Below, piece by piece: positions 833-64,000 of a stretch of 64,000 nt of DNA (the first letter of the stretch is position 1; the number at the start of each line of letters is the position of its first letter). Made by a program: the position numbers and the translations under genes. The stretch is from Micromonospora parastrephiae (GTDB lineage: Bacteria; Actinomycetota; Actinomycetes; Mycobacteriales; Micromonosporaceae). Location of the stretch: contig NZ_JAEVHM010000008.1 of NCBI RefSeq assembly GCF_016802865.1, positions 1 through 64,000 of the forward strand. Reading direction: 5' to 3'. Under the pieces are notes generated by a model. The model saw only the letters and a list, made by a program, of their open reading frames with translations, was not told the origin of the DNA and ran no database searches.

Positions 833-1684
833 TCAGTGCTCCACGTCCATGCGCTGGGTGCCGATGACCGACAGCAGCCTCAGCGCCTCTTCCGAGGGTG
901 AGCCGGGAACGGCCGTGTAGATCACGACCTGCTGGTCCCGGTCGGTGATGTCGAGGACGTCACAGTTCACGGTGACCGGGCCGACCAGCGGGTGCTGGAA
1001 GGTCTTGCACAGGGTGGGCTCGGCGCCCACGTCGTGGGAGGCCCACAGTTGGGCGAAGTCCTCACTCCCGGCGAGCAGGTCACCCACCAGCTCGGTCACC
1101 TCGGGATCGTCGGGGTAGCGCGCCGCGGTGGCGCGCAGGCGGCGGGCCGAGGTACGGGCGAACGCGTTTGCGTCGGACACCCCGTACAGCCGCCGCCCCT
1201 GCGGGTGGGGACCCAGGAAGACCCGGCGCACAAGGTTGCGGTGTCGCCGTGGCAGGGCGGAGAAGTCCTCCATGAGGGCAGCCGCGAGATCATTCCAGGC
1301 GATCACCTCGTACGCCGCAGAGGTCACGATCACGGCCGCCTGCGGCAGCCGTTGCAGGAGGTCGAGGACGCTCTGCCGTACCTCGCGGGAGGGCCCGGGC
1401 GGCGGCCCCGGCGGTGCGCCGGCGAGGTGGTGCAGGTGACTGCGCTCGGCGTTCGACAGCCGCAGGGCGCGGGCCAGCCCGGCCAGCACCTCACGCGATG
1501 GGCGCGGCCCGCGGGCCTGCTCCAGACGGGTGTAGTACTCGGTCGAGATGAACGCCAACTGGGCCGCCTCCTCACGACGCAGCCCGGGGGTGCGGCGGCG
1601 CGGCCCGGCGGGCAGGCCCACGTCGGCAGGCGTGATCCGCTCGCGCCTGCTACGCAGGAAGACAGCCAGCTCTCGTCGGTCCAC
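833..1684 (-). CDS. XRE-family regulator with MmyB-like ligand domain
   Basis: This 283-residue protein has an N-terminal helix-turn-helix (about residues 12-75, including RREEAAQLAFISTEYYTRLE) and a C-terminal MmyB-like domain with the hallmark NDLAAAL and QHPLVGPV stretches. Such proteins are DNA-binding repressors or activators whose PAS-like domain may bind a fatty acid or other small ligand. The start chosen is GTG 1684, which gives the usual VDRRELAVFLRSRRE beginning after a G-rich ribosome site. The gene diverges from an SDR gene, with a 45-bp inverted repeat between them, so it very likely regulates that SDR and itself. Confidence 0.9.
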   Translation of the reverse strand: MDRRELAVFLRSRRERITPADVGLPAGPRRRTPGLRREEAAQLAFISTEYYTRLEQARGPRPSREVLAGLARALRLSNAERSHLHHLAGAPPGPPPGPSREVRQSVLDLLQRLPQAAVIVTSAAYEVIAWNDLAAALMEDFSALPRRHRNLVRRVFLGPHPQGRRLYGVSDANAFARTSARRLRATAARYPDDPEVTELVGDLLAGSEDFAQLWASHDVGAEPTLCKTFQHPLVGPVTVNCDVLDITDRDQQVVIYTAVPGSPSEEALRLLSVIGTQRMDVEH

Positions 1685-1705
1685 ACCCCCAGTGTGCACG
1701 TGATT

Positions 1706-1750
1706 CGCGGGACCGATCCAGGTACCGCCAGTGCCTGGATCGGCCCCGCG
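1706..1750. promoter_or_regulatory. Long inverted repeat, probable operator
   Basis: Arms at 1706-1722 and 1734-1750 match as inverted repeats at 16 of 17 positions, with core CCGATCCAGG and its complement separated by 11 bases. The element lies exactly between the divergent MmyB-type regulator and the SDR gene, where an operator of the regulator would be expected. Binding by the adjacent regulator is inference. Confidence 0.7.
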
Positions 1751-1771
1751 ACCGGACGCAGGCTTGCTGCC

Positions 1772-2572
1772 ATGGACAACACACCAAATGCTGACGAAAC
1801 CACCCTGACCCCTACTGGTCTGTTGGCCGGCAAGGTCGCCTTCATCACCGGCGCTGGGCGCGGTATCGGTGCCGCCGCGGCCCGGTTGTTCGCCGCCGAG
1901 GGCGCCCGGGTGCTGCTCGCCGCCCGCACGGAGGAGCAACTGAAGGCGGTGACCGAGGAGGTCCGGGCAGCGGGCGGCACCGCGGACCACGTGGTCTGCG
2001 ACCTGGCCGACGCGGCGAGCGTGCGCGCCGCGGTCGACCGCGTGGTCGAGTTGTACGGCCGCCTCGACGTCGCCTTCAACAACGGCGCGACGTTCGTGCC
2101 GCCCGGCCCGATGGACCGGGTGCGGGAGACCGACTTCGACCATGTCTACGCCGTGAACCTCAGGGGCCCGTGGCTGGCCATGGTCGCCGAGGTCGGCGCG
2201 ATCCGGGCTACCGCCGGTACCGGGGCCATCGTCAACAACTCCAGCGTCGGCAGCCTGACGGGCAACCCCGAGCTGCCCGCCTACGGTGCGATGAAGCGGG
2301 CAGTGAACAGCCTCACCGAGTCGGCCGCCATCACGTACGGCCCGGAAGGCATCCGCGTGAACGCCATCGCGCCCGGCAACACACGGACGGAGATGATCCG
2401 CACCTGGGAGGGGGAGTCGCCCGGTCTCGTCGAACGACTCGTGGCGAACACGCCGCTGCGCCGTGCGGCCGAGCCCGTCGAAATCGCCCAGGCCGCCGCC
2501 TGGCTGCTCAGTGATCGCGCCTCGTTCGTCACCGGCACGGTTCTGCGGGTCGACGGCGGTGCGCGGGCCTGA
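1772..2572 (+). CDS. Short-chain dehydrogenase/reductase
   Basis: This 266-residue classical SDR has the cofactor motif TGAGRGIG near residues 26-33, a structural NNGA in place of the usual NNAG, a catalytic Ser near 158 and YGAMK (Tyr near 171, Lys four further on). The C-terminal GTVLRVDGG is typical of the family. It should carry out an NAD(P)H-dependent oxidation or reduction of an unknown alcohol or carbonyl. It is divergent from an MmyB-type regulator, a common pairing in actinomycetes that suggests substrate-induced expression. Its end lies eight bases from the convergent LysE-type gene. Confidence 0.9.
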   Translation: MDNTPNADETTLTPTGLLAGKVAFITGAGRGIGAAAARLFAAEGARVLLAARTEEQLKAVTEEVRAAGGTADHVVCDLADAASVRAAVDRVVELYGRLDVAFNNGATFVPPGPMDRVRETDFDHVYAVNLRGPWLAMVAEVGAIRATAGTGAIVNNSSVGSLTGNPELPAYGAMKRAVNSLTESAAITYGPEGIRVNAIAPGNTRTEMIRTWEGESPGLVERLVANTPLRRAAEPVEIAQAAAWLLSDRASFVTGTVLRVDGGARA

Positions 2573-2580
2573 GCGACGCC

Positions 2581-3231
2581 TCAGGGTGTGGCGATCGCGG
2601 CGCGGCTGCGGTCGGTGGCGATGCGGACGGCCAGCGCCGCGAGGGCCGTACCGGTCACCCACCGCTGCACCCGCAGCCACACCGGCCGACGGGCGAAGAA
2701 CCCGGCAAGCGTGCCGGCGCTGAGCACGATCAGCGCGTTGACGCTCAGCGCGACGGCGATCTGGGTCAGTCCGAGCAGCAGGCTCTGCGCCGCCACGTGC
2801 CCCCGAGTCGGGTCGACGAACTGCGGCAGCAGCGACACGTACAGGATGGCGATCTTCGGGTTGAGCAGGTTGGTGACCAGGCCCATGGTGAACAGCCGCC
2901 GCGGCGGGTCCGGCGGCAGCGGCGCGGGCGTGAACGGTGACCGCCCGCCCGGACGCACCGTGCGCCAGGCCAGCCACAGCAGGTAACCGGCCCCGGCCAG
3001 CTTCACCACCGCGTACAGCGTGGGCACCAGGACGAACACGGCGGCCAGGCCGGCGACCGCCGTGGTCAGGTAGACGCCGAACCCGGCGGCCACCCCGAGC
3101 AGCGAGACCAGCCCGGCCCGGCGGCCCTGCGCCACCGAGCGCGAGACCAGGTAGACCATGTTCGGGCCGGGTGTGAGCACCAGCCCCAACGCCACCAACG
3201 CGATGCCCAGCAGGGCACCCGAACCCACCAT
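2581..3231 (-). CDS. LysE/RhtB-family amino-acid or metabolite exporter
   Basis: A 216-residue membrane protein with about six hydrophobic segments. The N-terminal LTPGPNMVYLVSRSVAQGRR is the LysE/RhtB signature, and LLNPKIAILY after the central loop is also conserved. The family exports amino acids such as threonine, homoserine or lysine. The start at 3231 follows a GGGGG ribosome site; longer in-frame starts add an Arg-rich tail atypical of the family. Confidence 0.9.
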   Translation of the reverse strand: MVGSGALLGIALVALGLVLTPGPNMVYLVSRSVAQGRRAGLVSLLGVAAGFGVYLTTAVAGLAAVFVLVPTLYAVVKLAGAGYLLWLAWRTVRPGGRSPFTPAPLPPDPPRRLFTMGLVTNLLNPKIAILYVSLLPQFVDPTRGHVAAQSLLLGLTQIAVALSVNALIVLSAGTLAGFFARRPVWLRVQRWVTGTALAALAVRIATDRSRAAIATP

Positions 3232-3459
3232 GACGATCCCCCGTTTCACCGCCGACCGGACCGACCGTAGGCCGGGGCGGCCCCGCCGGCCGAGGGCCAC
3301 CTGCCAGGTCGTGGCCCTGAAATCCGGTCAGCGGGGCGGAAACGTCCCTGGGTGGCAGTGCGCCGGGAATGGTCGCGGTCGCGGGGGCGCTGATCCGTCG
3401 CAAGTGCGTGTCGCCGGCCGGAGGGGGCGCGTTACGGTGGCCAGGGGAGGTGGCGCAGG

Positions 3460-3945
3460 GTGACCGAGGCGTGGGACGCGGCCGTGGAGGCGCAGATCCG
3501 GGGAGCCGTGCAACGCGGCGAGTTCGACAACCTGCCCGGCCTGGGCAAGCCGATCCCCGGGCGCGGAATGCCGTACGACGAGTCGTGGTGGATCAAGAGC
3601 TTCCTGGAGCGCGAGAAGCTGCCCAGCGACCTGCTGCTACCCACCCCACTGCAACTGCGTCGCCGTATCGAGCAGGTCCCCGACGAGGTCCGCGACCTGC
3701 CTACCGAGCAGTCCGTGCGGGACTTCGTGGCGCAGCTCAACGCCCAGATCGTGGCGTGGCTGCGCAACCCCGAAGGCCCGCGCGTGGCGGTCCGGCCGGT
3801 GAACGCCGACGAGGTAATCGGCCGCTGGCGCGCCGAGCGCGCCCGGCCCGGGGCCAGGGTGCCCGCCACCGAACCGGCAACCGCCGTCGCGCCGGCCCGC
3901 CGTCCCCGCCGGAGGTGGTGGCCGCGCTGGCGCCGTGCGGGCTGA
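3460..3945 (+). CDS. DUF1992 / DnaJ-homologue subfamily C member 28-like protein
   Basis: The 161-residue protein contains the DUF1992 signature: AVEAQIRGAVQRGEFDNLPG, then GKPIPG and a WWIKSFLERE helix. Function is unknown in bacteria; the domain occurs in eukaryotic DNAJC28 without implying chaperone activity here. The GTG start is supported by AGGGGAGG nine bases upstream. The C-terminus is a Pro/Arg/Trp-rich tail with no clear domain. Confidence 0.88.
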   Translation: MTEAWDAAVEAQIRGAVQRGEFDNLPGLGKPIPGRGMPYDESWWIKSFLEREKLPSDLLLPTPLQLRRRIEQVPDEVRDLPTEQSVRDFVAQLNAQIVAWLRNPEGPRVAVRPVNADEVIGRWRAERARPGARVPATEPATAVAPARRPRRRWWPRWRRAG

Positions 3946-3981
3946 CCCCCACAGCGGCGACGGCAACGGCAGACTGTACCG

Positions 3982-4518
3982 ATGTTGATCGAGTCACGGG
4001 CGTCGGACACCTCCCCGGCGCTCATCCTGCGCCCCTGGTGCGCGGACGACCTGGACGCATTGCTGGCCGCGTACCGGGATCCGGTGCTGCGCCGATGGAC
4101 CCGTGTCCCGGTGACGAACGCCGCCGAGGGCCGGCGATGGCTGGACCGGACGCGACAGGACTGGACCGACGGCCGCCGGTACAGTCTCGCCGTTCTCGAG
4201 GGCGCCACGGACGATCCACGCCTCGTGGCGAACGTGGTGCTCAAGGGGGCCGCGCCCGAGCGGCCGGCCGCCGAGGTGGGCTACTGGACCGCGGTGTGGG
4301 CGCGCGGGCGTGGAATCGCCCCACGGGCGGTCACCGCGCTCAGTCGGTGGGCGTTCGACCGGTTCCCCCGGCTGGAGCGCCTCGACCTGCTGCACCAGGT
4401 GGACAACGTCGCGTCCTGCCGGGTGGCGCAGAAGAGCGGCTACGTGTTCCAGGAGGTGCTGCCGGCCCGGCCGCCGTTCCCCCTCGACGGTCACCGACAC
4501 ACGCTCACCGTCCGCTGA
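3982..4518 (+). CDS. GNAT acetyltransferase, RimJ/RimL type
   Basis: A 178-residue single-domain acetyltransferase. It begins with LILRPWCADDLDALL and has the acetyl-CoA loop ARGRGIAPRAV, the DNVASCRVAQKSGYVF motif and the late beta strand of RimJ/RimL-like enzymes. These use acetyl-CoA to acetylate protein N-termini or small amines; the target is not predictable. The convergent DinB-like gene ends 13 bases away. Confidence 0.85.
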   Translation: MLIESRASDTSPALILRPWCADDLDALLAAYRDPVLRRWTRVPVTNAAEGRRWLDRTRQDWTDGRRYSLAVLEGATDDPRLVANVVLKGAAPERPAAEVGYWTAVWARGRGIAPRAVTALSRWAFDRFPRLERLDLLHQVDNVASCRVAQKSGYVFQEVLPARPPFPLDGHRHTLTVR

Positions 4519-4530
4519 CCTGGGGCCGGC

Positions 4531-5106
4531 TCACTCCAGAGCGGCCCGCCAAGTCCACGAGCTGCGCCGTGCCCGGCCGGGCAGGTCGCCACGACCGGTC
4601 ATCCACAGCAGCACGTCGGGGGCGGCGCCCTCCGGGGCGTCCGGGAAGAGCCGCCGCAGCACCAGCGCGCTCAGCCGCTGCGGCGGCTGCCACCGCACGC
4701 CGAGCCCGAGGGTGATGTCGTGGCTGTGCAGCAGGGTCTCGGCCACGCCCATCGCGGCGAAGCCGGCCGGGTCGCAGGGACCGAAGTGCCAGGCCCGCGT
4801 GCCCGGCGGGGCGGCGTCGACGGCGACGGCGAGCAGCCCGGCGCAGGCACGCACCACGGTGAGTACCTGCGCCGGGCTCGCGTCGGGGGAGACCCGCAGG
4901 TCGTACGGCAGGTAACCGTCATCGGGGCGGCCGGTGACCTGGCCGGCGTACCCGAGAAGGTCGTGCGCGACGTGGGCGGCGGTGAGCCAGCAGCTCCAGC
5001 GCAGGGTGCCGGCCGGGACCGACCAGTCGTGCTCCTGGTACGGCCTCAGCACCCGGGTCATCTCGTCGGCTGCCTGGAGCAGGTCGGCGCCGGTCACCGC
5101 TGACAT
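4531..5106 (-). CDS. DinB / maleylpyruvate-isomerase-like mycothiol-dependent protein
   Basis: This 191-residue protein has the four-helix DinB/MDMPI fold signature: WLTAAHVAHDLLGYAGQVTG supplies one His, and GVAETLLHSHDITLGLG supplies the further metal-binding His/Glu/Asp residues. In actinomycetes this family includes mycothiol-dependent S-transferases and maleylpyruvate isomerase, metal enzymes acting in thiol redox or detoxification. The specific substrate is unknown. Confidence 0.8.
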   Translation of the reverse strand: MSAVTGADLLQAADEMTRVLRPYQEHDWSVPAGTLRWSCWLTAAHVAHDLLGYAGQVTGRPDDGYLPYDLRVSPDASPAQVLTVVRACAGLLAVAVDAAPPGTRAWHFGPCDPAGFAAMGVAETLLHSHDITLGLGVRWQPPQRLSALVLRRLFPDAPEGAAPDVLLWMTGRGDLPGRARRSSWTWRAALE

Positions 5107-5150
5107 CCGTCGACCCTCTCAGCGGCGCCGCGCGGGTGCAACCGGGTTCG

Positions 5151-5657
5151 TCAGCCGGCTGCCGCGGGATGCGAGTCGAGGCGGTGTGTCGAGCCCGCCG
5201 CCAGGGCCTGGTCGACGTGCTGGATGCCCGCGCGGACCAGGTCGCCGTACTGGTCGGTCGGCAGCTGCACGGCGAGGCTGCGAGCGGTGACCAGGTACGC
5301 GCGGGCCCGGGTGCTGTTGCCCAGTCGTCGGTGCACGTCGGCGAGGCTCAGGTGCAGCGACGGTAGGAAGGCCCGCACCTGGAGCGCGGAGTGGTACTGC
5401 TGGGCGCGGTCGTCGGTGAGGTCGGCGACGGCGGCCAGCGCCCGTTCGTCCCACACCAGCTCGGCCTCGGCGGTGTCCTGGAGGTCGGCGAGGTAGTGGG
5501 CGAGGGTGCAGCGGTGCAGGGCGTCACCGGTGGGGCCGATCTCGTCCCACAGCGCGCTGAGCGATTCGCGGGCCTGGACCGGCGCACCGGATTGGCCGAG
5601 TTGCACCGCCTCGATGATGCGCTTCATGGTCGGGTCGGGTGTCGGTTGGTCGTCCAT
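5151..5657 (-). CDS. TPR-like hypothetical protein
   Basis: A soluble, largely helical 168-residue protein. The pattern of paired helices around ALHRCTLAHYLADLQD and LHLSLADVHRRLGNSTRARA resembles tetratricopeptide repeats, so it probably binds other proteins. I find no catalytic motif. It is transcribed on the same strand as, and downstream of, the murein-recycling operon, but 74 bases from the end of the last gene, so membership is uncertain. Confidence 0.7.
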   Translation of the reverse strand: MDDQPTPDPTMKRIIEAVQLGQSGAPVQARESLSALWDEIGPTGDALHRCTLAHYLADLQDTAEAELVWDERALAAVADLTDDRAQQYHSALQVRAFLPSLHLSLADVHRRLGNSTRARAYLVTARSLAVQLPTDQYGDLVRAGIQHVDQALAAGSTHRLDSHPAAAG

Positions 5658-5731
5658 GCCGCCGATGCTCAGGCCTCAACCCGGTCGAGGGTCAACCCAC
5701 CGGACATCGGTCGACCCTCGCCGGGTATCGC

Positions 5732-7531
5732 TCAGCTGCGCGCGGGTGACCACCCGTCGGCGACGAGCCGGGAGGCATCGGCGCCCTCGCCGTCGACGAG
5801 CACCCCGTACCGGTCCGCCGCGACGACCCGGTCGACGTAGACGCCACGCCCCTGACCGGAGCCGTCCGTGCTGCTGCTCCATCGCAGGTGGGTGGCCTGG
5901 TCGGGCAGCGCCACCGTAACCTGCCACCAGACCCGGCCCCCGTAGCCGGTGACCGTGCCGTCGGCGCTCCATTGGCGGGCGGCGTCGCGTAGGCGCATGG
6001 TCGACGGCGTCCAGGTCTGCCCGCCGTCGGTGGAGACCTCGAATCGTGCGCTGTCGTAGCGGGGTTCGGTGTCGTACCAGAGGAGGAAGCTCAGCGTCCC
6101 GCCCCGGGCGGGCCGGCGCAGCGGAGCGGTGAGGGTGCTCGTCGTGGAGTCGCGGGGATCGGCCCGCCAGGCGCTGGCCGAGCGCGGTCGCACCGGCATC
6201 GCCTCGGCGAGATCCCGCGCGACGGCGCGTCGGGCCACGTTGTTGCTGCCCCAGCCGCGGTCGGGGTGCACCCGGTTGCTGAGCATGATCACGAACGAGT
6301 GCGACAGCGGGTCGACGACGATCGACGTCCCGGTGAAGCCAGTGTGTCCGAAGGCCACCGGCGAGGAGAGCCCCATCATGTACCAGTGCTTGTTCAGCTC
6401 GAAGCCGAGCCCGCGGTCGCTCTCCGGATAGGCCGACTCCAGCGGCGCGTTGTAGTTGACCAGCATCGTGCGCACCGTCTCCGCGCGAAGGATCCGCCGG
6501 CCGCGGTAGTCGCCGCCGTTGAGCAGTGACTGGCACAGCACGGCCAGGTCCGCCGCCGTGGAGAAGACCCCCGCGTGCCCGGCGACGCCGCCGAGCGACC
6601 ACGCGTTCTCGTCGTGTACCTCGCCCCACACCATGCCGCGTCCGGCATACGGCTGGTATTCGGTCGCGGCGATCCGCGACCGCCGCTCCGCGCCCGGGTT
6701 GTAGCCGGTGTCGGTCATGCCCAACGGCCCGGTCACGCCGTCGCGGACCAGGTCGGCCAGCGGCCGGCCGGTCACCCGCTCCACCAGTACGCCCAGCGAG
6801 ATCAGCCCGAGGTCGGAGTAGACGTACTGGGCACCGGGTGTCGCCCCGGCCGCGAGGGGCGTGGCGAGCGCTGCGGCGAACCGCTCGGCCGGTGTGGGGT
6901 ACCGGCTCCACAGCGGCGTGAACGCGGGCAGACCCGACGTGTGGGTGAGCAGCATCCGGACGGTGACCGTCTCCTTGCCGCCGGCGGCGAACTCCGGGAC
7001 GTACCGGGCGACCGGCGCGTCCAGCTCCACCCGCCCCCGCTCCACCTGCTGCATGGTGACGATCGTGGTGAACAGCTTGGACACCGACGCCAGGTCGAAG
7101 ATGGTGTCGGGGCGGGTCGCGATCTGCTGGTCGGCGGGGAGTTCCACGCCGACCAGGCCGGGCGGTGGCCCGACGGAGGCGTACTTCACCGCGCTGCCCA
7201 CGGCGGCGTGCTGGACGATGACGCCGTCCTTGGCGGCGAGGACCACCGCGCCCGCGTACGCCGGGTAGTCGGGGTGGTCCGGCGTCGGTTGAAGGTACGC
7301 CGCCAGGTCGGCGGGCAGGCGATCCACCTGCTCGGGGAGCAGCCCGACCTGGCGGGCGCTGCCGCGCCGCAACGTGTCGTGTCGGAAGTGGATGTCGGCG
7401 GGGGTGACGGACGGCGGACCGGACCCGGCCGGGGCGGCCACCGCCCCGGTGACGGGCAGGGTCGTGCCCAGGACCACCAGGGCCAGGCCGAGCGCGAGTG
7501 AACGGAGCGGGCGACGGGTCGGCATGGTCAT
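5732..7531 (-). CDS. Secreted serine hydrolase, AmiE/beta-lactamase family
   Basis: A 599-residue protein with a signal peptide (hydrophobic residues about 9-30 ending AVAAP). Its penicillin-binding fold has the SxxK motif ASVSK with Ser near 149, a YSD element in the second-motif position and HTG as the third motif. A C-terminal beta-rich region (FEVSTDGGQTW) probably binds carbohydrate or another surface. It is the last gene of an operon with namZ and nagZ homologues. In Bacillus subtilis the matching gene, amiE (ybbE), encodes an N-acetylmuramyl-L-alanine amidase that removes peptides from MurNAc. The same role here is inferred from fold and context. Confidence 0.85.
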   Translation of the reverse strand: MTMPTRRPLRSLALGLALVVLGTTLPVTGAVAAPAGSGPPSVTPADIHFRHDTLRRGSARQVGLLPEQVDRLPADLAAYLQPTPDHPDYPAYAGAVVLAAKDGVIVQHAAVGSAVKYASVGPPPGLVGVELPADQQIATRPDTIFDLASVSKLFTTIVTMQQVERGRVELDAPVARYVPEFAAGGKETVTVRMLLTHTSGLPAFTPLWSRYPTPAERFAAALATPLAAGATPGAQYVYSDLGLISLGVLVERVTGRPLADLVRDGVTGPLGMTDTGYNPGAERRSRIAATEYQPYAGRGMVWGEVHDENAWSLGGVAGHAGVFSTAADLAVLCQSLLNGGDYRGRRILRAETVRTMLVNYNAPLESAYPESDRGLGFELNKHWYMMGLSSPVAFGHTGFTGTSIVVDPLSHSFVIMLSNRVHPDRGWGSNNVARRAVARDLAEAMPVRPRSASAWRADPRDSTTSTLTAPLRRPARGGTLSFLLWYDTEPRYDSARFEVSTDGGQTWTPSTMRLRDAARQWSADGTVTGYGGRVWWQVTVALPDQATHLRWSSSTDGSGQGRGVYVDRVVAADRYGVLVDGEGADASRLVADGWSPARS

Positions 7532-55611: not shown

Positions 55612-56397
55612 ATGGATCTGGCGGTCGACGAGACAGCGGGAACCGGACCGGCGATCGTCTGCCTGCCCATGTTCGGCACGAGCCGCGCCACCACGGCAGC
55701 CGCCCTCAGTCCCGCCCTCGCCGGTGCGGGCCTGCGCGAGACGTACCTGGACCTGCCCGGCCACGGCGACTCACCAGCGACCGGCCACCCCACCTCCCAG
55801 GCGGTGCTGGACGCCGTCTGCGCATGGCTCGACCGTCACCTCGACGCGCCCGTCCTGCTGGCCGGCGCGTCCTACGGCGCCTACCTCGCCGCCGGGATCG
55901 CACGCCAGCGGCCAGAACTCGTCCGTGGCCTGCTCCTCGTCTGCCCGGGTGTCGCCATCTCGCCGGAACGTCGGACCCTGCCCGACCGTCGTCGCCCACC
56001 GGCGGCGCCCACCGGCTGGCTCGACGCCGCCCCCGCCGACCTGCGCGCACACCTCGACACCGCGCTGGGCCATCGCACCCCGGCCGTCGTCGCGACGGTG
56101 CTCGCCGCGCTCACCTCCGGCGGCTCCGGCGACGAGACGTTCCAGCAGGACCTGCGAACAGGCCCCGGGTACGCGCTTCCCGACGAGCACGACGACACCG
56201 TCTTCGACGGGCCGGTCAGCGTGCTCACCGGCCGACAGGACGGCATCGTCGGCTACGCCGACCAGTTCCACGCCATGCGCCGCTATCCCCGTGGCACCTT
56301 CACGGTGATCGACGAAGCCGGGCACTACCTGCCCTTCGAACAACCGGCGCTGCTGCGCTCGCTCACCCAGGACTGGCTGCGCCGCACGCACAACTGA
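55612..56397 (+). CDS. Alpha/beta hydrolase
   Basis: A 261-residue alpha/beta hydrolase. The nucleophile Ser is in LAGASYGAYLAAGI, the acid Asp in TGRQDGIVGY and the His in EAGHYLPFEQ. It should hydrolyse an ester, lactone or similar bond. It lies 199 bases before ramC on the same strand, with regulatory repeats in the gap, so it is probably not part of the ram operon; no leader-peptidase feature is evident. Confidence 0.85.
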   Translation: MDLAVDETAGTGPAIVCLPMFGTSRATTAAALSPALAGAGLRETYLDLPGHGDSPATGHPTSQAVLDAVCAWLDRHLDAPVLLAGASYGAYLAAGIARQRPELVRGLLLVCPGVAISPERRTLPDRRRPPAAPTGWLDAAPADLRAHLDTALGHRTPAVVATVLAALTSGGSGDETFQQDLRTGPGYALPDEHDDTVFDGPVSVLTGRQDGIVGYADQFHAMRRYPRGTFTVIDEAGHYLPFEQPALLRSLTQDWLRRTHN

Positions 56398-56466
56398 CCG
56401 CCCGACCTGCGGCAAGCCAGCGCGGCAGGGTCCCCGACCCTCCCCGGCCGTGCGGACCTGACTTTT

Positions 56467-56504
56467 GTCATGAGTGCCCGTGCGCCCCACACCGAAGCTC
56501 ATGA
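56467..56504 (+). promoter_or_regulatory. Inverted GTCATGAG/CTCATGAC repeats upstream of ramC
   Basis: GTCATGAG at 56467-56474 and CTCATGAC at 56498-56505 are perfect inverted repeats, and each carries a TCATGA core. The cores are 31 bases apart, close to three helical turns, which fits a pair of regulator dimers on one face of DNA. The distance to the ramC start is about 95-130 bases, a normal position for activator sites such as those of RamR. Binding is inference. Confidence 0.5.
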
Positions 56505-56596
56505 CTAAGCGCACTGTGGCCCGTCACGTCCTGTGAACGAGACTCAATCCAGCGCCGGAACACATGCCGGCCGAGTTCGTGACGGGAGGCGGGACG

Positions 56597-59194
56597 GTGG
56601 ACGAGCGCTACGACAGTTACTGCGCCGCGGATCGACTGTTCTACGACTCGCTCGGCAGCGCCGTCGCGCAGCCCGTCTTCCCGGCCGCCGAGCGGCCGGT
56701 ACCGGCCGGCTGGCGCCGAGAGCCGCTCGACGACTGGTTGATCTACGGCCCGGACGGCGGCTCGCTGCCGCAGCAGGGCTGGAAGATCCACGTGTCGGCG
56801 GGTCTGGCCAACGCCGAGCGGGTGCTCGACGCGGTCTGGGACTACTGCGTCCCCCGCGGCCTGTCCTTCAAGTTCCTGCGCGGACCTCGCACGTTGCTGC
56901 TGCGCAACTCCAAGTACGCCGCGCGGGCCGCCAGCGGCAAGTTCATCACGGTCTACCCCCGCGACGACGCGGAGCTGGAGCTGACCTGCAAGGAACTCGA
57001 CAAACTGCTCGCCGGCGAGTCCGGACCGTACATCCTCAGCGACCTCCGCTACGGAGCCGGCCCGGTCCACGTGCGCTACGGCGGCTTCGCCGCCCGTTAC
57101 TGCCACTCGCCGGACGGTCAGGTGGTGCCGGCGATCGAGGACGACTCCGGTGCGCTGGTACCCGACCGTCGCGAACCGGTCTTCCACGTCCCGTCCTGGA
57201 TCACCCTGCCCGACTTCCTCGGCCCGCACCTGGCCGCCCGGAGCGAGACCAGCACCAACGAGGTGCCCTACCGCATCGAGCGGGTGATCCACTTCTCGAA
57301 CGGCGGCGGGCTGTACGTGGGCCGGGACCTGCGCAGCGACACCCAGGTGGTGCTGAAGGAGGCACGACCGCACGCCGGCCTGGACGCCGACGGCGTCGAC
57401 GCCGTCGCCCGACTGGCACGCGAGGCCGCCGCACTGCGGCAACTCTCCGACCTGCCGCAGGTGCCACGTGTGCACGACGAGTTCACCCTCGGCGAGCACC
57501 GGTTCCTCGCCCTCGAATTCATCGAGGGCCGGCCGCTGAACAAGGTGCTCGTCGACCGCTACCCGCTCATCGACGCCGACGCCACGGACGACGACCGGGC
57601 GACGTACGCCCGATGGGCCCGGCACATCTACGAGCAGGTCGAGTCCCTCATCGAGGCGATCCACCAGCACGGCCTGGTCTACGGGGACCTGCACCTGTTC
57701 AACATCATGGTCCGCCCGGACGATCGAGTCGTCCTGGTCGACTTCGAGGTCGCCGCCCCGATCACCGGACACCGTCGACCCGGGCTGCGCAACCAGGGCT
57801 TCGCGGCGCCCCGGGACCGGACCGGACCAGCGGTCGACCGGTACGCGCTGGCGTGCCTGCGGCTGGCGCTGTTCCTGCCACTGACCCAGCTGGTCCGCCT
57901 CGCACCGACGAAGGTGGGCCACCTCGCCGACATCATCGCCGCGAACTTCCCGGTGCCGCGATCCTTCCTGGACCCGGCGGTCGAGGAAATCACCGGCGGT
58001 CCACGAGACACCGCCAACCCCGGCCTGGACCTCGACACGCGCGACTGGCCGACCCTGCGAGACCAACTGACCAGAGCGATCGTCGCCAGCGCCACCCCCG
58101 AGCGCGACGACCGGCTCTTCCCCGGCGACATCGAACAGTTCCGCAGCGGCGGCCTCAACCTCGCCCACGGCGCGGCCGGCGTGCTGTACGCACTCGACAA
58201 GGCCGGCGCGGGCCGCTGGCCCGAACACGAGGACTGGCTGGTACGGCGGGCGACAGCACCCCCGTCCGGCACCCGCTGCGGCTTCTACGACGGCCTGCAC
58301 GGTGTGGCGTACACCCTGGAACACCTCGGACGCCGGCAGGACGCCCTGGACGTCCTCGACATCTGCCTGCGCGAGCCCCTGGACGGGCTCGACCACAGCC
58401 TGTCGAGCGGACTGTCCGGAATCGCCCTCAACCTGGCCGAACTGGCCGCGCGTACCGGGGAGGCGTCACTGCTCGACGCCGCCTGGCGGGCGGCCCAGCG
58501 GGTGATCGACCGGCTGGCCGACGACCCGGGCCCCGACATCAGCGGCGGACGCCACCCTTACGCCGGGCTGCTGCGCGGCCGGACCGGACCGGCGCTGATG
58601 TTGCTGCGGCTCTACGAACTCACCGGCGACGACGACCTCCTGGGGCACGCCGCCACGGCGCTGCGCCAGGACCTGCGCCGGTGCGTGCTGCGCCCGGACG
58701 GCGCGCTGGAGGTCAACGAGGGCTGGCGAACCATGCCATACCTGGCGCACGGCAGCGTCGGCATCGGGCTGGTCATCGACCAGTACCTGCGCCACCGCGC
58801 CGACGACCGGTTCGCCGAGGCGAGTGCCGGGATCCGCCGCGCGGCACGGTCACCGTTCTACGCGCAATCCGGACTCTTCGCTGGCCGGGCCGGCATCATC
58901 AGCTACCTCGCCGCATCGACCGACGACGCCGACCGCCGGGAACTCGACGTGCAGCTGGATCGGCTGTCCTGGCACGCGCTGCCGTACCGCGACGGCACGG
59001 CCTTCCCCGGTGAGCAGTTGCTGCGCCTGTCCATGGACCTCGGCACCGGCACCGCCGGCGTGCTGTACGCGCTGGCCTGCGCCCAGCACGACGAGCCGCC
59101 GGTGCTGCCGTTCCTCGCGCCCCTCGCGGGCGCGACCAGACTCCCTCGCGACAGCGAGGGCGACCTGACCGACGAACGGATGGAAGGGAGGTGA
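56597..59194 (+). CDS. ramC: Class III lanthipeptide synthetase (RamC/LanKC)
   Basis: 865 residues in three parts: an N-terminal lyase-like region (about 1-210, MDERYDSYCAADRLFYDSL), a Ser/Thr-kinase-like domain (about 220-480) and a LanC-like cyclase (about 520-865). The kinase has QVVLKEARP (ATP-binding Lys), HGLVYGDLHLFNIM and VDFEVA; the cyclase has repeated GxxG motifs (LAHGAAGVLY, LSSGLSGIAL, FAGRAGIISY). The zinc Cys ligands of LanM/LanL are missing (YLAHGSVG), as in class III. It should phosphorylate, dehydrate and cyclise the RamS precursor in the cytoplasm. GTG 56597 follows GGGAGG and gives the usual family N-terminus. Confidence 0.94.
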   Translation: MDERYDSYCAADRLFYDSLGSAVAQPVFPAAERPVPAGWRREPLDDWLIYGPDGGSLPQQGWKIHVSAGLANAERVLDAVWDYCVPRGLSFKFLRGPRTLLLRNSKYAARAASGKFITVYPRDDAELELTCKELDKLLAGESGPYILSDLRYGAGPVHVRYGGFAARYCHSPDGQVVPAIEDDSGALVPDRREPVFHVPSWITLPDFLGPHLAARSETSTNEVPYRIERVIHFSNGGGLYVGRDLRSDTQVVLKEARPHAGLDADGVDAVARLAREAAALRQLSDLPQVPRVHDEFTLGEHRFLALEFIEGRPLNKVLVDRYPLIDADATDDDRATYARWARHIYEQVESLIEAIHQHGLVYGDLHLFNIMVRPDDRVVLVDFEVAAPITGHRRPGLRNQGFAAPRDRTGPAVDRYALACLRLALFLPLTQLVRLAPTKVGHLADIIAANFPVPRSFLDPAVEEITGGPRDTANPGLDLDTRDWPTLRDQLTRAIVASATPERDDRLFPGDIEQFRSGGLNLAHGAAGVLYALDKAGAGRWPEHEDWLVRRATAPPSGTRCGFYDGLHGVAYTLEHLGRRQDALDVLDICLREPLDGLDHSLSSGLSGIALNLAELAARTGEASLLDAAWRAAQRVIDRLADDPGPDISGGRHPYAGLLRGRTGPALMLLRLYELTGDDDLLGHAATALRQDLRRCVLRPDGALEVNEGWRTMPYLAHGSVGIGLVIDQYLRHRADDRFAEASAGIRRAARSPFYAQSGLFAGRAGIISYLAASTDDADRRELDVQLDRLSWHALPYRDGTAFPGEQLLRLSMDLGTGTAGVLYALACAQHDEPPVLPFLAPLAGATRLPRDSEGDLTDERMEGR

Positions 59195-59200
59195 CACGAC

Positions 59201-59320
59201 ATGGCGCTTCTGGACCTCCAGGGCCTGGAGATGGCTCCGGCCGACCGCACGGGTGGCGGTAGCCGGGCGAGCCTGCTGCTCTGCGGCGACAGCTCGCTCT
59301 CCGTCACGACCTGCAACTGA
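59201..59320 (+). CDS. ramS: SapB-like lanthipeptide precursor (RamS)
   Basis: A 39-residue precursor. The leader starts MALLDLQGLEM, with the LLDLQxLE element recognised by class III synthetases. The core GGSRASLLLCGDSSLSVTTC differs from Streptomyces SapB only at its start and by Val for Ile. Ser21-x2-Ser24-x3-Cys28 and Ser31-x2-Ser34-x3-Cys38 each give one lanthionine ring and one dehydroalanine in SapB. SapB is a surface-active peptide that lets hyphae leave the wet surface. The start is six bases after ramC; GGGAGGTGA overlaps the ramC stop, so the two are coupled. Confidence 0.95.
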   Translation: MALLDLQGLEMAPADRTGGGSRASLLLCGDSSLSVTTCN

Positions 59321-59331
59321 TCCATTCGCAC

Positions 59332-59376
59332 GCGTGGCCCTGGGCGGGTAGACGTACCCGCCCAGGGCAACCACGC
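59332..59376 (+). terminator. Strong stem-loop between ramS and ramA
   Basis: CCCTGGGCGGGTA (59338-59350) and its exact complement (59355-59367) form a 13-base-pair stem with a 4-base loop, extended by GCGTGG/CCACGC at the outside. It sits 12 bases after ramS and 17 bases before ramA. It has no T-tract and may act as a leaky terminator or as an mRNA-stabilising end, favouring precursor over transporter. Confidence 0.7.
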
Positions 59377-59392
59377 AGCACCGGGAGGACCG

Positions 59393-61119
59393 ATGCCGAC
59401 GTTCGCCACGGGAGACCGGTTGCTCAGGCGGACGGTCCTGGCGGGCGGTGGCTGGACCGCCGCACTCGCGGCGTCGCGCTGCTCGGCGCGACCGCCGAAC
59501 TCCTGCTACCCGCGGTCCTCGGACGCGCCGTCGACGCCGCTCTCGCCGCGGGCTCCGGCTGGTGGACGGTGGCCGCCTGCGCACTGGTCGTCGTACTCAT
59601 CTGCGTCGACACCCTCACGGACCTGGCCACCGGATTCGGCGCGGCACGAGCCACCGCCGAGCTGCGCCGGCACCTGCTGCGCCACCTGTTCGCGCTGGAC
59701 GTCCGCACCACCCGCCGGCACCCGGTGGGTGATCTCGTCGGCCGGCTGGTCAGCCAGACGGCCGACGCGGGACAAGCCGGCAACGCCGTGGTGCTGGCGG
59801 TGATCGCGTTGCTGCCGCCACTCGGCAGCGTCGTCGCGCTCACCATCATGGAACCGGTGCTCGGGGTCACCCTGCTCGCCGGCCTCGGCCTGCTCACCAT
59901 CCTCATGCGGGCCTTCGTCTCCGACGCCTCGGCCGTGACCGCCAGCTACCAACGGGTGCTGGGCGCCATCGCCGGCCGACTGCTGGAATCACTGACCGGG
60001 GCCCGGACCATCGCCGCCGCCGCCACCACCCACCGTGAGCAGGAGCGGGTGCTGGCGGCCCTACCGGAACTCGGCGCGCACGGCCGGCGCGGTTGGGAGC
60101 TGCTGGCCCGGGTGAGCGCACGCACGTCCGCCGTGGCGCCGCTGCTGCACCTCAGCGTCGTCGCGGTCGGCGGATACGCCCTGACCGTCGGCTGGCTGAC
60201 GCCAGGGCAACTGGTCGCCGCGGTCCGCTACGCGGCGATGGGCGCCGGCCTCGGCGGCGTACTCGCCGCACTGAACCACCTGGTCCGCAGCCGCGCGGGC
60301 GCGACTCGGATCGCCGAGCTGCTGGCTCAGCCCGTCGTGCCGGCAGGCGACCGACCCCTCCCACCCGGCGGCGGCGCGCTGCGACTGCGCGGGGTGAGCG
60401 TGCGCGCCGACGACGGCCGGCCCATCCTGGACCGGATCGACCTGGACGTACCGGCCGGCTCGACCGTGGCCGTCGTCGGAACGTCCGGCTCCGGCAAATC
60501 GACCCTGGCCGCAATAGCGGGACGACTGCACGATCCCGACGACGGCGACGTGCGACTGGACGGCGTACCCCTGCGGCACCTCGACCGGGCGGCGCTGCGC
60601 CGGGCCGTGGGCTACGCCTTCGACCGACCCGTGTTGATCGGCGCGACCATCCACGACGCGATCGGGTTGGCGCTGCCGCCCGGGTCGGCAGCCCTGCCGA
60701 CCGACCCGGCTCCGGCGACACCGGCGGTCCTACAGGCCGCCCGCATGGCGGCGGTCGCCGACGTGGTCGAACGGCTACCCCACGGCTACCGCACCCCGCT
60801 GGCGGACACACCCCTGTCCGGGGGCGAAACCCAACGCCTCGGCCTGGCACGCGCCTTCGCCGCCGAACGACTGCTCATCCTGGACGACGCGACATCCAGC
60901 CTGGACACGGCCACCGAACACCGCATCGCCCAGGCGGTCACCGGACGGACCGGCGAGCGCACCCGGCTGGTGATCACCCACCGGGTCGCCACGGCCGCGA
61001 CGGCCGACCTCGTCGCCTGGCTGGACGGCGGACGGCTGCGCGGCCTGGCACCACACCAGCGGCTCTGGGCCGACCCGGACTACCGAGCGGTCTTCCAACC
61101 CGCCAGCGGTGGGTCGTGA
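59393..61119 (+). CDS. ramA: ABC exporter half-transporter RamA, 5' frameshift
   Basis: From about 59473 to 61119 the sequence encodes a complete TMD-NBD transporter: LGATAELLLPAVLGRAVDAA onward, Walker A VVGTSGSGKSTLAA, signature LSGGETQRLG, Walker B LLILDDATSSLD and His in ITHRVA. The ATG at 59393, with GGGAGG four bases before, opens a frame MPTFATGDRLLRRTVLAGGG that ends in a shift: one base is missing near 59466-59472. The repaired protein has about 575 residues. If the shift is real, translation would start near 59569 without the first transmembrane helix. With RamB it should export the peptide. Confidence 0.87.
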
Positions 61120-62894
61120 ACCCTCCCGGGGTACGCCGAGTGACCTGGCGGGCGATGCGGGCCCGCCGGCGGGAGCTGGCCCGGCTGTGCGGCTGGTCGC
61201 TGGTCGAGTCACTGCCCGCGCTGCTCTCCGGCTACCTGGTCGCCCGCGCCGTCGACGAGGGTTTCCTGGCCGGGCACGCACTCACCGGCCTGACCTGGTT
61301 GGGTGCCCTCGCCGTGGCCGTGCTGATCGGCGCGACGGCCACCGGCCGGACGTACCGGAGCCTCGGCGCCGTGGTCGAGCCGTTCCGCGACGAACTGGCC
61401 GCTCAGGTGGTCCGCGGGGCGCTGCGCGACGCCACCCGGGCCGGCGGCCACCCGGACAGCACCGCGGTGGCCCGGTTGACCCACCAGACGGAGATTGTCC
61501 GCGACACCTTCGCCGGTCTGCTGATGGTGACCCGCGGTTTCCTCTTCTCCGCCGGCGCCGCCCTGCTCGGCCTGCTCGCCCTGGCACCGGTGGTGGCGGC
61601 GCTCGCCGCCGCGCCCCTGGCCGTCGGCCTGGCCGTGTTCCTCACCGCGCTGCCGGCGATGGTCACGCACCAGCGCGCGTACGTCCGGGCCGGTGAGCAG
61701 CTCGGCCAGTCCGCCGCGACCGCGTTGGCCGGGCACCGAGACGTGCTGGCCTGCGGCGCGCAGGCACGTGTGACGGCCGACGTGGAACGTCGAGTGTCGT
61801 CGCAGGCCGCCGCGGAACGCACACTCGCCCGGATGGCCGCGATCCGCAGCCTCAGCCTCGGCATCGGCGGCTGGCTGCCGCTGGTGGTGCTGCTGGCAGC
61901 CGCACCGTGGCTGGTCCAGCATGGCCTGACCGCCGGCGCGGTGCTGGGCGCGCTGATCTACGTCTCCACCGGCCTGCAACCAGCCCTGCACACCCTGGTC
62001 CAGGGCGTCGGCGGCGGCGGACTGCGCTACGTGGTGACCCTGGAGAACATCCTGCGCACCTGCCCGGAGATCGACGCTCCCCGTCCACCGGAGTCGGTCA
62101 ACCGGACGCCCCGCTCCCGCCCACCGACCGGCCGGACCGGCCCCGCCCCGGCCGTCGAGGTCCGGGGACTGACCTTCCGCTACGGCCCGCGCTCCCGGCC
62201 CATCCTGGAGAACTTCTCACTCGACCTGACCCACGGCGAACACCTCGCCGTGGTGGGCCCGAGTGGTGCGGGCAAGTCCACACTGGCCGCCCTGATGGCC
62301 GGCCTGGTGCCACCGCAAGCCGGCACCGTCCACCTGGCCGGCGAGCCGGTGACCGGCGCCGACCCGGCCGCCCTCGCCCGAATGCGGGTGCTGGTACCGC
62401 AGGAGGCCTACATCTTCACCGGACGCCTCGCCGACAACCTGCGCTACCTCCGGCCCGACGCCGACGACCGCACGCTGGAAACCGCCCTCGACACGCTCGG
62501 CGCGCGCCCCTTGGCAACCCGCCTGGGCGGCCTGAACGCACAGGTCACACCGGCCCTGCTCTCCGGCGGCGAGCGGCAGCTCATCGCCGCGGTCCGGGCC
62601 TGGCTCGCGCCCGCCCCACTGGTGATCCTCGACGAAGCCACCTGCCACCTGGACCCGGCACTGGAGGCCACGGTCGAAGACGCCTTCGCCCGGCGACCCG
62701 GCAGCCTGGTCGTGATCGCCCACCGGATCAGTTCCGCGCTCCGGGCCCGTCGACTTCTGGTCCTCGACGGTGACGAGCCCGTCGCGGGGACGCATGAGCA
62801 ACTGCTGGCACACTCGGCCACCTACCGGCTGCTCGTCGGCTACTGGGACGAGCCGGCGGTGGCACCCCCGGCGACGCCGGCGCGGCGGGGCTGA
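61116..62894 (+). CDS. ramB: ABC exporter half-transporter RamB
   Basis: A 592-residue transporter of the same type, with six transmembrane helices, Walker A VVGPSGAGKSTLAA, signature LSGGERQLIA, Walker B PLVILDEATCHLD and His in IAHRIS. It starts at GTG 61116, overlapping the ramA stop (GTGA), so production is coupled. RamA and RamB would form a heterodimer exporting the SapB-like peptide after modification, as the corresponding Streptomyces ramAB genes are thought to do. Confidence 0.92.
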   Translation: MNPPGVRRVTWRAMRARRRELARLCGWSLVESLPALLSGYLVARAVDEGFLAGHALTGLTWLGALAVAVLIGATATGRTYRSLGAVVEPFRDELAAQVVRGALRDATRAGGHPDSTAVARLTHQTEIVRDTFAGLLMVTRGFLFSAGAALLGLLALAPVVAALAAAPLAVGLAVFLTALPAMVTHQRAYVRAGEQLGQSAATALAGHRDVLACGAQARVTADVERRVSSQAAAERTLARMAAIRSLSLGIGGWLPLVVLLAAAPWLVQHGLTAGAVLGALIYVSTGLQPALHTLVQGVGGGGLRYVVTLENILRTCPEIDAPRPPESVNRTPRSRPPTGRTGPAPAVEVRGLTFRYGPRSRPILENFSLDLTHGEHLAVVGPSGAGKSTLAALMAGLVPPQAGTVHLAGEPVTGADPAALARMRVLVPQEAYIFTGRLADNLRYLRPDADDRTLETALDTLGARPLATRLGGLNAQVTPALLSGGERQLIAAVRAWLAPAPLVILDEATCHLDPALEATVEDAFARRPGSLVVIAHRISSALRARRLLVLDGDEPVAGTHEQLLAHSATYRLLVGYWDEPAVAPPATPARRG

Positions 62895-62920
62895 CACCGC
62901 CCGCCCACACCGGCGGGGGG
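62892..62920. terminator. Possible bidirectional hairpin between ramB and ramR
   Basis: The stretch from the ramB stop (TGAC) to the ramR stop (GTCA) contains CCCGCC and GGCGGG around a six-base loop, with TGAC/GTCA pairing outside. It could terminate both convergent transcripts. Confidence 0.45.
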
Positions 62921-63505
62921 TCAGATCCAGCCCGCCTCGCGTGCGACGCGCACCGCCTCGACCCGGGTACGCGCACCAACCTTGCGCGCGATCCGCCCCA
63001 GATGGTTGCGGACGGTGCCCGAGGTGAGCCCCAGCGACACCGCGACCTCCGCGACCGGCGCCCCCGCCGCGGTCAGGGACAACACCTCCGTCTCACGATC
63101 GGTCAGTGGGCCGTCCGAGTGCAGCGCCGCGACGACGAGGTCCGCGTCGAGCACCGGCTCCCGCCGAGCGAGCCGGCGGATCCCGTCGATGACCCGCTGA
63201 GGAGCGACGTCGCTGCGCAGCACGCCCACCATCCGGGTCGCGCAGGCCATTCCGCGCAGCCGCCCAGCCCGACGTGGGTGAGCCAGCACCAGGACCGGAC
63301 ACGGGCCGAGGCGACTGGCGTCGACCCCCTCGATGAAGTTCAGGTCCGCCACCACCACGTCGGGGCGTTGGGCCCGCACCGCCGCGGGAACCGCCTCGCC
63401 GCGGTCCACCTTCGCCACCACACGGATGTCATCCTCGGCAGCGAGGACGAACGACAACGCGCCCAACACCAGGGCACCGTCCAACGCGAGCAGGGTACGG
63501 ATCAC
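62921..63505 (-). CDS. ramR: NarL/FixJ-type response regulator, RamR-like
   Basis: 194 residues from the preferred GTG 63505 (VIRTLLALDGALVLGALSFV), which has GGAAGG seven bases before; ATG 63520 is the longest alternative. The receiver domain has an Asp in VVVADLNFIEG at the phosphorylation-site position. The C-terminal LuxR helix-turn-helix is LTDRETEVLSLTAAGAPVAE followed by GLTSGTVRNHLGRIARKVGA. In Streptomyces RamR, an orphan regulator next to ramCSAB, activates the operon; position and fold argue for the same job. An ATCAC/GTGAT dyad lies upstream at 63535-63549. Confidence 0.85.
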   Translation of the reverse strand: MIRTLLALDGALVLGALSFVLAAEDDIRVVAKVDRGEAVPAAVRAQRPDVVVADLNFIEGVDASRLGPCPVLVLAHPRRAGRLRGMACATRMVGVLRSDVAPQRVIDGIRRLARREPVLDADLVVAALHSDGPLTDRETEVLSLTAAGAPVAEVAVSLGLTSGTVRNHLGRIARKVGARTRVEAVRVAREAGWI

Positions 63506-63625
63506 TTCGAACCTTCCCACGCACTCCGATGATGATCACACAACGTGATAATTCAAGCACGCACCCGACGTGTCCGCACGTCGGGGGAGCGGGCCCGGGC
63601 AGACCGCCGGACCCGCCCCCGACCA

Positions 63626-64000
63626 CTACAACCAGCCGTCCCGCCGCGCACGCCACACCGCCTCCAACCGGTTCCGAGCACCGGTCTTGCGCAGAATCGC
63701 CGACAGATGGTTGCGCACCGTCCCATGTGCCAGGTACAGGCGGACAGCGATCTCCTTGAGAGGCAGACCTTCGGCGGCCATCCGCAGCACATCCATCTCC
63801 CGGGGCGTCAACGGGCTCTCCGTGGGCCACAGCACCGCCGCCGCAGCGGCCGGGTCGATCGCACGCTCCCCGGCGGCGAGCGTGCGGATCGCCCGCACCA
63901 ACTCCGCCAGGGAGCCATCCTTGCCGACCAGACCCCGAGCGCCGGCCGCCAGCGCCGCCTCCACCAGCGCCGGACTCCACCGCGGACTCATCGCCAACAC
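63626..64000 (-). CDS. Second NarL/FixJ-type response regulator (5' end outside window)
   Basis: The visible 124 residues cover the end of a receiver domain (AALAAGARGLVGKDGSLAEL with the conserved Lys) and a LuxR helix-turn-helix: LTPREMDVLRMAAEGLPLKE and LYLAHGTVRNHLSAILRKTG. The real N-terminus lies beyond 64000; the GTG at 64000 is probably an internal Val. It is parallel to ramR, about 120 bases upstream, and could control the ram cluster or form a pair with a kinase outside the window. Confidence 0.85.
   Translation of the reverse strand: MLAMSPRWSPALVEAALAAGARGLVGKDGSLAELVRAIRTLAAGERAIDPAAAAAVLWPTESPLTPREMDVLRMAAEGLPLKEIAVRLYLAHGTVRNHLSAILRKTGARNRLEAVWRARRDGWL

Follow-up and report, generated by a model that had tools for sequence, protein, structure and literature searches.

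The surfactant lanthipeptide SapB, which raises Streptomyces hyphae into the air, is commonly presented as an instrument of aerial growth. We describe here a SapB-type (ram/amf) locus in Micromonospora parastrephiae, situated at the end of a stretch of 64,000 nucleotides (nt), hereafter the window, from the draft assembly GCF_016802865.1 (417 contigs; genome of 6.54 Mb). The genes ramC, ramS, ramA and ramB lie in this order on the plus strand (56597-62894), and two response regulators of the NarL type follow on the minus strand, convergent with ramB, the second being completed on the contig beyond the window. A sequence-only reading of the window had proposed both this order and the presence of a SapB-type locus within a Micromonosporaceae genome, and the gene calls on the plus strand together with the family models bear this out. 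The features are as follows, lengths being given in base pairs (bp) or amino acids (aa) and ABC standing for ATP-binding cassette.

56466..56515, plus strand: putative ram operator, TGTCAY-N(28-33)-RTGAC-N6-CACT, starting 131 bp upstream of the ramC start codon
56597..59194, plus strand: ramC (lanKC), class III lanthionine synthetase of 865 aa, matched by NF038151 and the Pfam families RamC_N, Pkinase and LANC_like
59201..59320, plus strand: ramS, SapB-type precursor of 39 aa, matched by PF19402 and NF033212
59337..59368, plus strand: ramS-ramA hairpin with 14-bp arms and a 4-nt loop, without a T run, from its z score and compensatory changes
59393..61119, plus strand: ramA, ABC exporter half, disrupted, from the alignment with relatives and a frame scan
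61116..62894, plus strand: ramB, ABC exporter half of 592 aa with a GTG start, overlapping the ramA stop codon
62921..63520, minus strand: regulator a, NarL/LuxR type, probable start GTG 63505, GerE match of 52.6 bits
63626..64000 in the window and to 64234 on the contig, minus strand: regulator b, 202 aa, clipped by the window end

Synthetase, precursor and exporter

The synthetase scores 1132.8 bits against the LanKC equivalog NF038151 (cut-off 575), far above chance, and 275.1 bits against RamC_N of Pfam (cut-off 27), Pkinase and LANC_like domains being found besides; RamC possesses the lyase, kinase and LanC-like cyclase domains that characterise the class III enzymes (LanKC), and the class IV synthetase model remains under its own cut-off. 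The closest relatives of solved structure are LanKC-type chains (1e-75 to 1e-90). Translation probably begins at GTG 56597, which is preceded by GGAGG and aligns with the starts of the relatives, the mechanical open reading frame (ORF) running from 56564. RamC shares 79-92% identity with its counterparts in 19 further Micromonospora loci, of which one is broken, and the nearest named copies, at up to 92% identity, belong to Micromonospora species. RamS, for which there is a single match across the whole genome, reaches 59.6 bits with PF19402 (cut-off 24.3) and 64.1 bits with the SapB/AmfS family NF033212 (cut-off 25), and has the build of a SapB/AmfS precursor, namely a short chain with an LLDLQ leader and two S-x-x-S-x3-C units. 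Its final 19 residues, SRASLLLCGDSSLSVTTCN, which we take to be the SapB core, share 18 of 19 positions with the Streptomyces inhibens copy, the sole difference being Val for Ile, so that the sequence-only reading, which was to be abandoned if the core proved distant from SapB, withstood this comparison. The RamS protein is identical in many species; ramC, ramA and ramB vary. In many other Micromonospora loci ramS is present as two or three tandem copies whose cores differ, with Gln, Asn or Gly in place of Arg and with Lys, His or Arg at the C-terminus; one genome (G128, contig C1, 3863105-3863584) has, besides the standard RamS, a further pair of RamS-like precursors that are divergent.

The gene order is the same in the relatives and in Streptomyces-family loci. 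The Streptomyces coelicolor ramCSABR cluster, compared by the gene list in PMC4255298 only, and the S. griseus amf cluster share with the present locus the LanKC enzyme, the RamS/AmfS-family precursor, the two ABC exporter halves, the regulator beside ramB and the order of these genes; they differ in having one regulator where there are two here, in having less Gly ahead of the core, and in that no chaplin match is found in the genus Micromonospora. Durhapeptin and other class III lanthipeptides of the SapB/AmfS family, as described in the relevant passages of PMC13380574, likewise share the L-L-D-L-Q leader motif, the two SXXSXXXC units and a synthetase that groups with RamC/AmfT, whereas durhapeptin itself has another core and a three-gene cluster with one transporter gene.

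The cluster had also been called complete, and in this respect the assembly disagrees. Of the two exporter halves, ramB is open and ramA is frameshifted: it starts in the frame of ATG 59393 and continues in another, one base being missing between about 59472 and 59473. Compared with its relatives the gene is thus one base short, and the cluster is incomplete as sequenced, unless the draft is in error. Among the aligned loci the window alone lacks this base, which is present in 15 of 15 other Micromonospora loci (four of the 20 fetched loci, L044, L045, L049 and L050, were left out of the alignment). A cruder frame scan finds the ramA frame open from its start in 99 of 103 distinct loci, 4 of these 99 being clipped where a contig ends. 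It is not so in the window, in one locus that is also clipped (G117), in M. tarensis and in V. sioxanthis, all of them drafts. RamB is 66-84% identical to the RamB of the relatives, and among the 25 matches listed for it against ABC exporter models all stay under the curated cut-offs. The ratio of non-synonymous to synonymous substitution rates (dN/dS) of ramC, ramA and ramB lies between 0.17 and 0.41 against 10 loci; with the nearest named relative it is 0.26 for ramA and 0.28 for ramB, and on account of this similarity ramA does not look long released from selection. The gene may be either a recent pseudogene or the product of a draft error, two states that look alike in the assembly alone. 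We lean somewhat towards an error of sequencing or assembly, in which case the locus would be intact and would yield a SapB-like peptide as in the relatives: the assembly is fragmented into several hundred contigs, three other draft loci of the 103 likewise have a broken ramA frame, and the dN/dS values of the two exporter genes agree, against which it counts that the missing base is not within a long homopolymer. Were the frameshift real, export of the peptide should be impaired in this strain.

Operator, regulator pair and hairpin

The putative operator was recognised as a conserved block in an alignment of the DNA upstream of ramC. The pattern has one match in the whole genome, at the site listed above, and the reversed control has 0. 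Across the genus it occurs in 94 of 160 genomes, comprising all 83 with RamS and 11 of the 77 without; two genomes (G035 and G114) contain the pattern twice, and 2 of the 160 contain the reversed control. When 110 loci with distinct upstream DNA are sorted by the number of regulators, the pattern is found within one mismatch before ramC in 49 of 49 two-regulator loci, 5 of 30 with one regulator, 3 of 12 with none and 9 of 19 clipped loci, and in 0 of 550 base-shuffled upstream regions. Some single-regulator loci match at one or two mismatches, so that a looser form of the operator may be general.

The sequence-only reading had anticipated a RamR-like regulator, and a response regulator does stand beside ramB; that it would be a single regulator was not borne out, two being present. 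A tree was built from distinct proteins, leaving out identical copies, proteins shorter than 185 residues and a locus with broken frames (L100). In it the 47 proximal (a) and the 47 distal (b) proteins, taken from the same 47 loci, form one clade each (100/94 and 99/90). A further 32 sequences come from loci, Streptomyces included, in which one regulator was found, some of these being short downstream of ramB (e.g. L110, L148, L168 and L184), such that a second may be missed; the single Streptomyces regulators group with b, in a split of weak support (85/89). At the conserved positions of a standard receiver, a retains the phospho-acceptor Asp in 46 of 47 proteins, the Lys in 0 of 47 and the first acidic residue in 0 of 47. 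In b, the Lys is kept by 39 of the 47 proteins, Glu occupies the first acidic position in 35, and the Asp is absent in 21. Regulator a of the window has the Asp and is without the Lys and the first acidic residue, and its regulator b is among the 21, Ala replacing the phospho-acceptor Asp. As judged from the residues at these positions, the receivers of a and b are degenerate in different ways. S. coelicolor RamR is described in a passage of PMC9739842 as an orphan regulator, and Chandra and Chater report, in their survey by reciprocal blastp, ramR from streptomycetes only (PMC4255298). According to the same survey most Streptomyces clusters carry a TTA codon in ramR or ramC; here there is none in ramC, ramS, ramA, ramB, regulator a or regulator b, from which we infer control without bldA. 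Downstream of the regulators, beyond the window and near the contig end, an ORF at contig positions 66422-67435 resembles by eye a tyrosine recombinase (XerC/D-like), and another at 67448-68152, on the minus strand, a secreted lipoprotein with a fasciclin-like domain.

Between ramS and ramA, the region 59321-59382 folds with a z score of -6.72. In 33 distinct sequences of the hairpin 99.0% of 396 cells are paired, and 4 of the 12 pairs show changes in both arms. Three measures exceed all 500 shuffles and each of the slid controls, namely the fraction of paired cells, the cells with changes in both arms and the covariation score. Two others do not: the number of pairs changed in both arms was reached by 75 of the 500 shuffles, and that of further pair types by 344. 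Such a hairpin may protect the ramS message or limit ramAB. Rfam at gathering thresholds gave 0 matches in 56000-64000, a sigma-70 promoter scan gave 0, and a terminator scan 1, equal to the shuffle expectation.

The coding sequence of ramS is itself conserved at the nucleotide level: in 19 loci of the closest clade its silent differences (59201-59317) amount to 0.054, compared with a median of 0.260 in 2211 overlapping segments of the same locus, the lowest of which has 0.141. Leu and Ser codons are mixed yet fixed by position, on account of which a uniform codon bias is a poor explanation, and many codons of the core are found again in loci as distant as Streptomyces. Nor does RNA structure within ramS offer a clear cause: the 151-nt fold is ordinary (z -0.23), and the consensus fold of the core has only a slight advantage over synonymous-codon shuffles, 5 of 60 of which do equally well. 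Gene conversion and very high expression are the remaining candidates.

Distribution, loss and absence of chaplin matches

RamS occurs in 83 of the 160 Micromonospora genomes, in 123 of 300 genomes sampled from the family (representing 24 of 44 genera) and in 46 of 374 sampled from the class. This wide presence in genus and family rejects the notion that the present genome is exceptional in hosting a Streptomyces cluster and, with the nearest Streptomyces RamC seen being 56-57% identical, makes a recent transfer from Streptomyces unlikely. The SapB-type locus of Micromonospora is indeed already known, common and published. Almost half of the strains of Carro et al. 2018 carried a sapB cluster (PMC5765111), a frequency comparable with ours; the SapT paper reports relatives of the SapB precursor in Micromonospora and Verrucosispora by genome mining (PMC9011353); and a table in PMC7918784 lists a SapB-like cluster in a Micromonospora. 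The clusters of Carro et al. and of the SapT paper are of the same kind and from the same genus as the present locus, and the passages of these two papers that deal with sapB do not discuss a regulator pair, operator, hairpin, remnants or frameshift. Outside Streptomyces, ram clusters are described as sporadic by Chandra and Chater (PMC4255298). The regulator pair, operator, hairpin, ramS silent sites, remnants and chaplin absence were not met in literature searches that mostly combined SapB with Micromonospora in open-licence papers, none of them aimed at these details alone, which is no proof that they are unpublished.

Five of the 11 genomes that have the operator pattern and no RamS were inspected, chosen because the letters of their sites resembled the ram site. 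Three (G036, G049 and G131) keep ramC fragments, G036 also a fragment of regulator b. A fourth (G097, positions 1096-6805 of the stretch read) matches ramC over its full length and keeps both regulators, but shows neither ramS nor ramA and, of ramB, only the last 33 residues; in the fifth (G007) an operator-like site stands alone in the 13 kb read. From these remnants it follows that the absence of the operon in the genus is at least partly due to loss.

The chaplin profile PF03777 matches 0 of the 160 genus genomes, our own genome included, and also 0 of 14 control genomes. In the class sample it matches 88 of 374 genomes, and 39 of the 46 that bear RamS have chaplins; Micromonospora accounts for 2 of the remaining 7, in counts that are uncorrected for relatedness. 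Given that the genus has no chaplin match, its SapB-type operon seems to stand apart from the chaplin sheath. The sequence-only reading had also doubted an aerial role on the grounds that many Micromonospora make few aerial hyphae, and this doubt finds confirmation in Carro et al. 2018, where none of the Micromonospora strains is reported to have formed aerial hyphae (PMC5765111).

A surface role and its alternatives

We consider it likely that the locus is a Micromonosporaceae form of the ram/amf operon, retained over a long time and lost repeatedly, the peptide of which would have a surface role rather than one in aerial lift. In the proposed working, as expected from the respective families, RamC would dehydrate serines in RamS, as it does four of them in SapB, and close two Ser-Xaa-Xaa-Ser-Xaa3-Cys rings, a protease encoded outside the cluster would remove the leader, RamA and RamB would export the peptide, and the product would be an amphipathic extracellular surface peptide. 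With four dehydrations, the 23-residue core would have a calculated monoisotopic [M+H]+ of 2126.996, and trimmed forms of it 2025.948 or 1854.884. We further propose that regulators a and b would act jointly on the single operator before ramC, and that the hairpin would set the level of the ramS message above that of ramAB. In the absence of a chaplin match and with strains reported to be without aerial hyphae, the peptide is more likely to wet or coat substrate hyphae, spores or colony surfaces than to lift aerial hyphae, and such a wetting or coating role is our preferred guess from the genomes. Of the surface, spore or antagonistic roles that the sequence-only reading had offered as alternatives, any may apply.

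Several points weigh against this interpretation. The locus is known here from its genes alone, from which the type of ring (lanthionine or labionin) is not readable, and the surface role is one that we infer. The chaplin profile could miss distant relatives, the 14 controls having given no match, and other authors, quoted by Carro et al. 2018, have reported aerial hyphae for some Micromonospora (PMC5765111). As sequenced, ramA is disrupted; the silent-site conservation of ramS is without an accepted cause; the operator pattern is also found in genomes without RamS (11 of 77); and the association of this pattern with the regulator pair may partly, or only, mirror kinship.

Other explanations were also considered. 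Where Micromonospora makes aerial hyphae, which are often sterile, the operon might still promote aerial growth in the manner of Streptomyces, as the almost identical RamS core and the reports just mentioned would allow; we hold this to be improbable in view of 39 of the 46 RamS-bearing class genomes having chaplins as against none matched in the 160 of the genus, and of the lack of aerial hyphae in any strain of Carro et al. 2018 (PMC5765111). Less probable still is that Micromonospora has inherited the operon as a decaying and now functionless relic from an ancestor with aerial growth, the ramA frameshift of the window being one step of loss. RamS was indeed not found in 77 of 160 genomes, four RamS-negative genomes keep pieces of ram and a fifth a lone operator-like site, and the frameshift itself would fit; however, where the genes are present they look to be under purifying selection (dN/dS of 0.17-0.41), and RamS shows almost no variation, silent sites included. 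A surface role thus stays our favoured interpretation of the locus. An elaboration of it, which is possible and which we put forward tentatively, would be a chaplin-independent surface system of the Micromonosporaceae in which two regulators with different losses at the phosphorylation site form a complex on one genome-unique operator and respond to a non-kinase input, with ramS being constrained at the nucleotide as well as the protein level.

What the genus presents, then, is a nearly unchanged SapB gene kept in about half of the Micromonospora species and lost in others, with a chaplin match in 0 of 160 genomes and strains reported to be without aerial hyphae. Pairs of species that have kept and lost the operon provide a setting for testing a non-aerial role of SapB; the operator and the regulator pair offer a handle for switching the operon on, and suggest a control unlike that of the Streptomyces locus.

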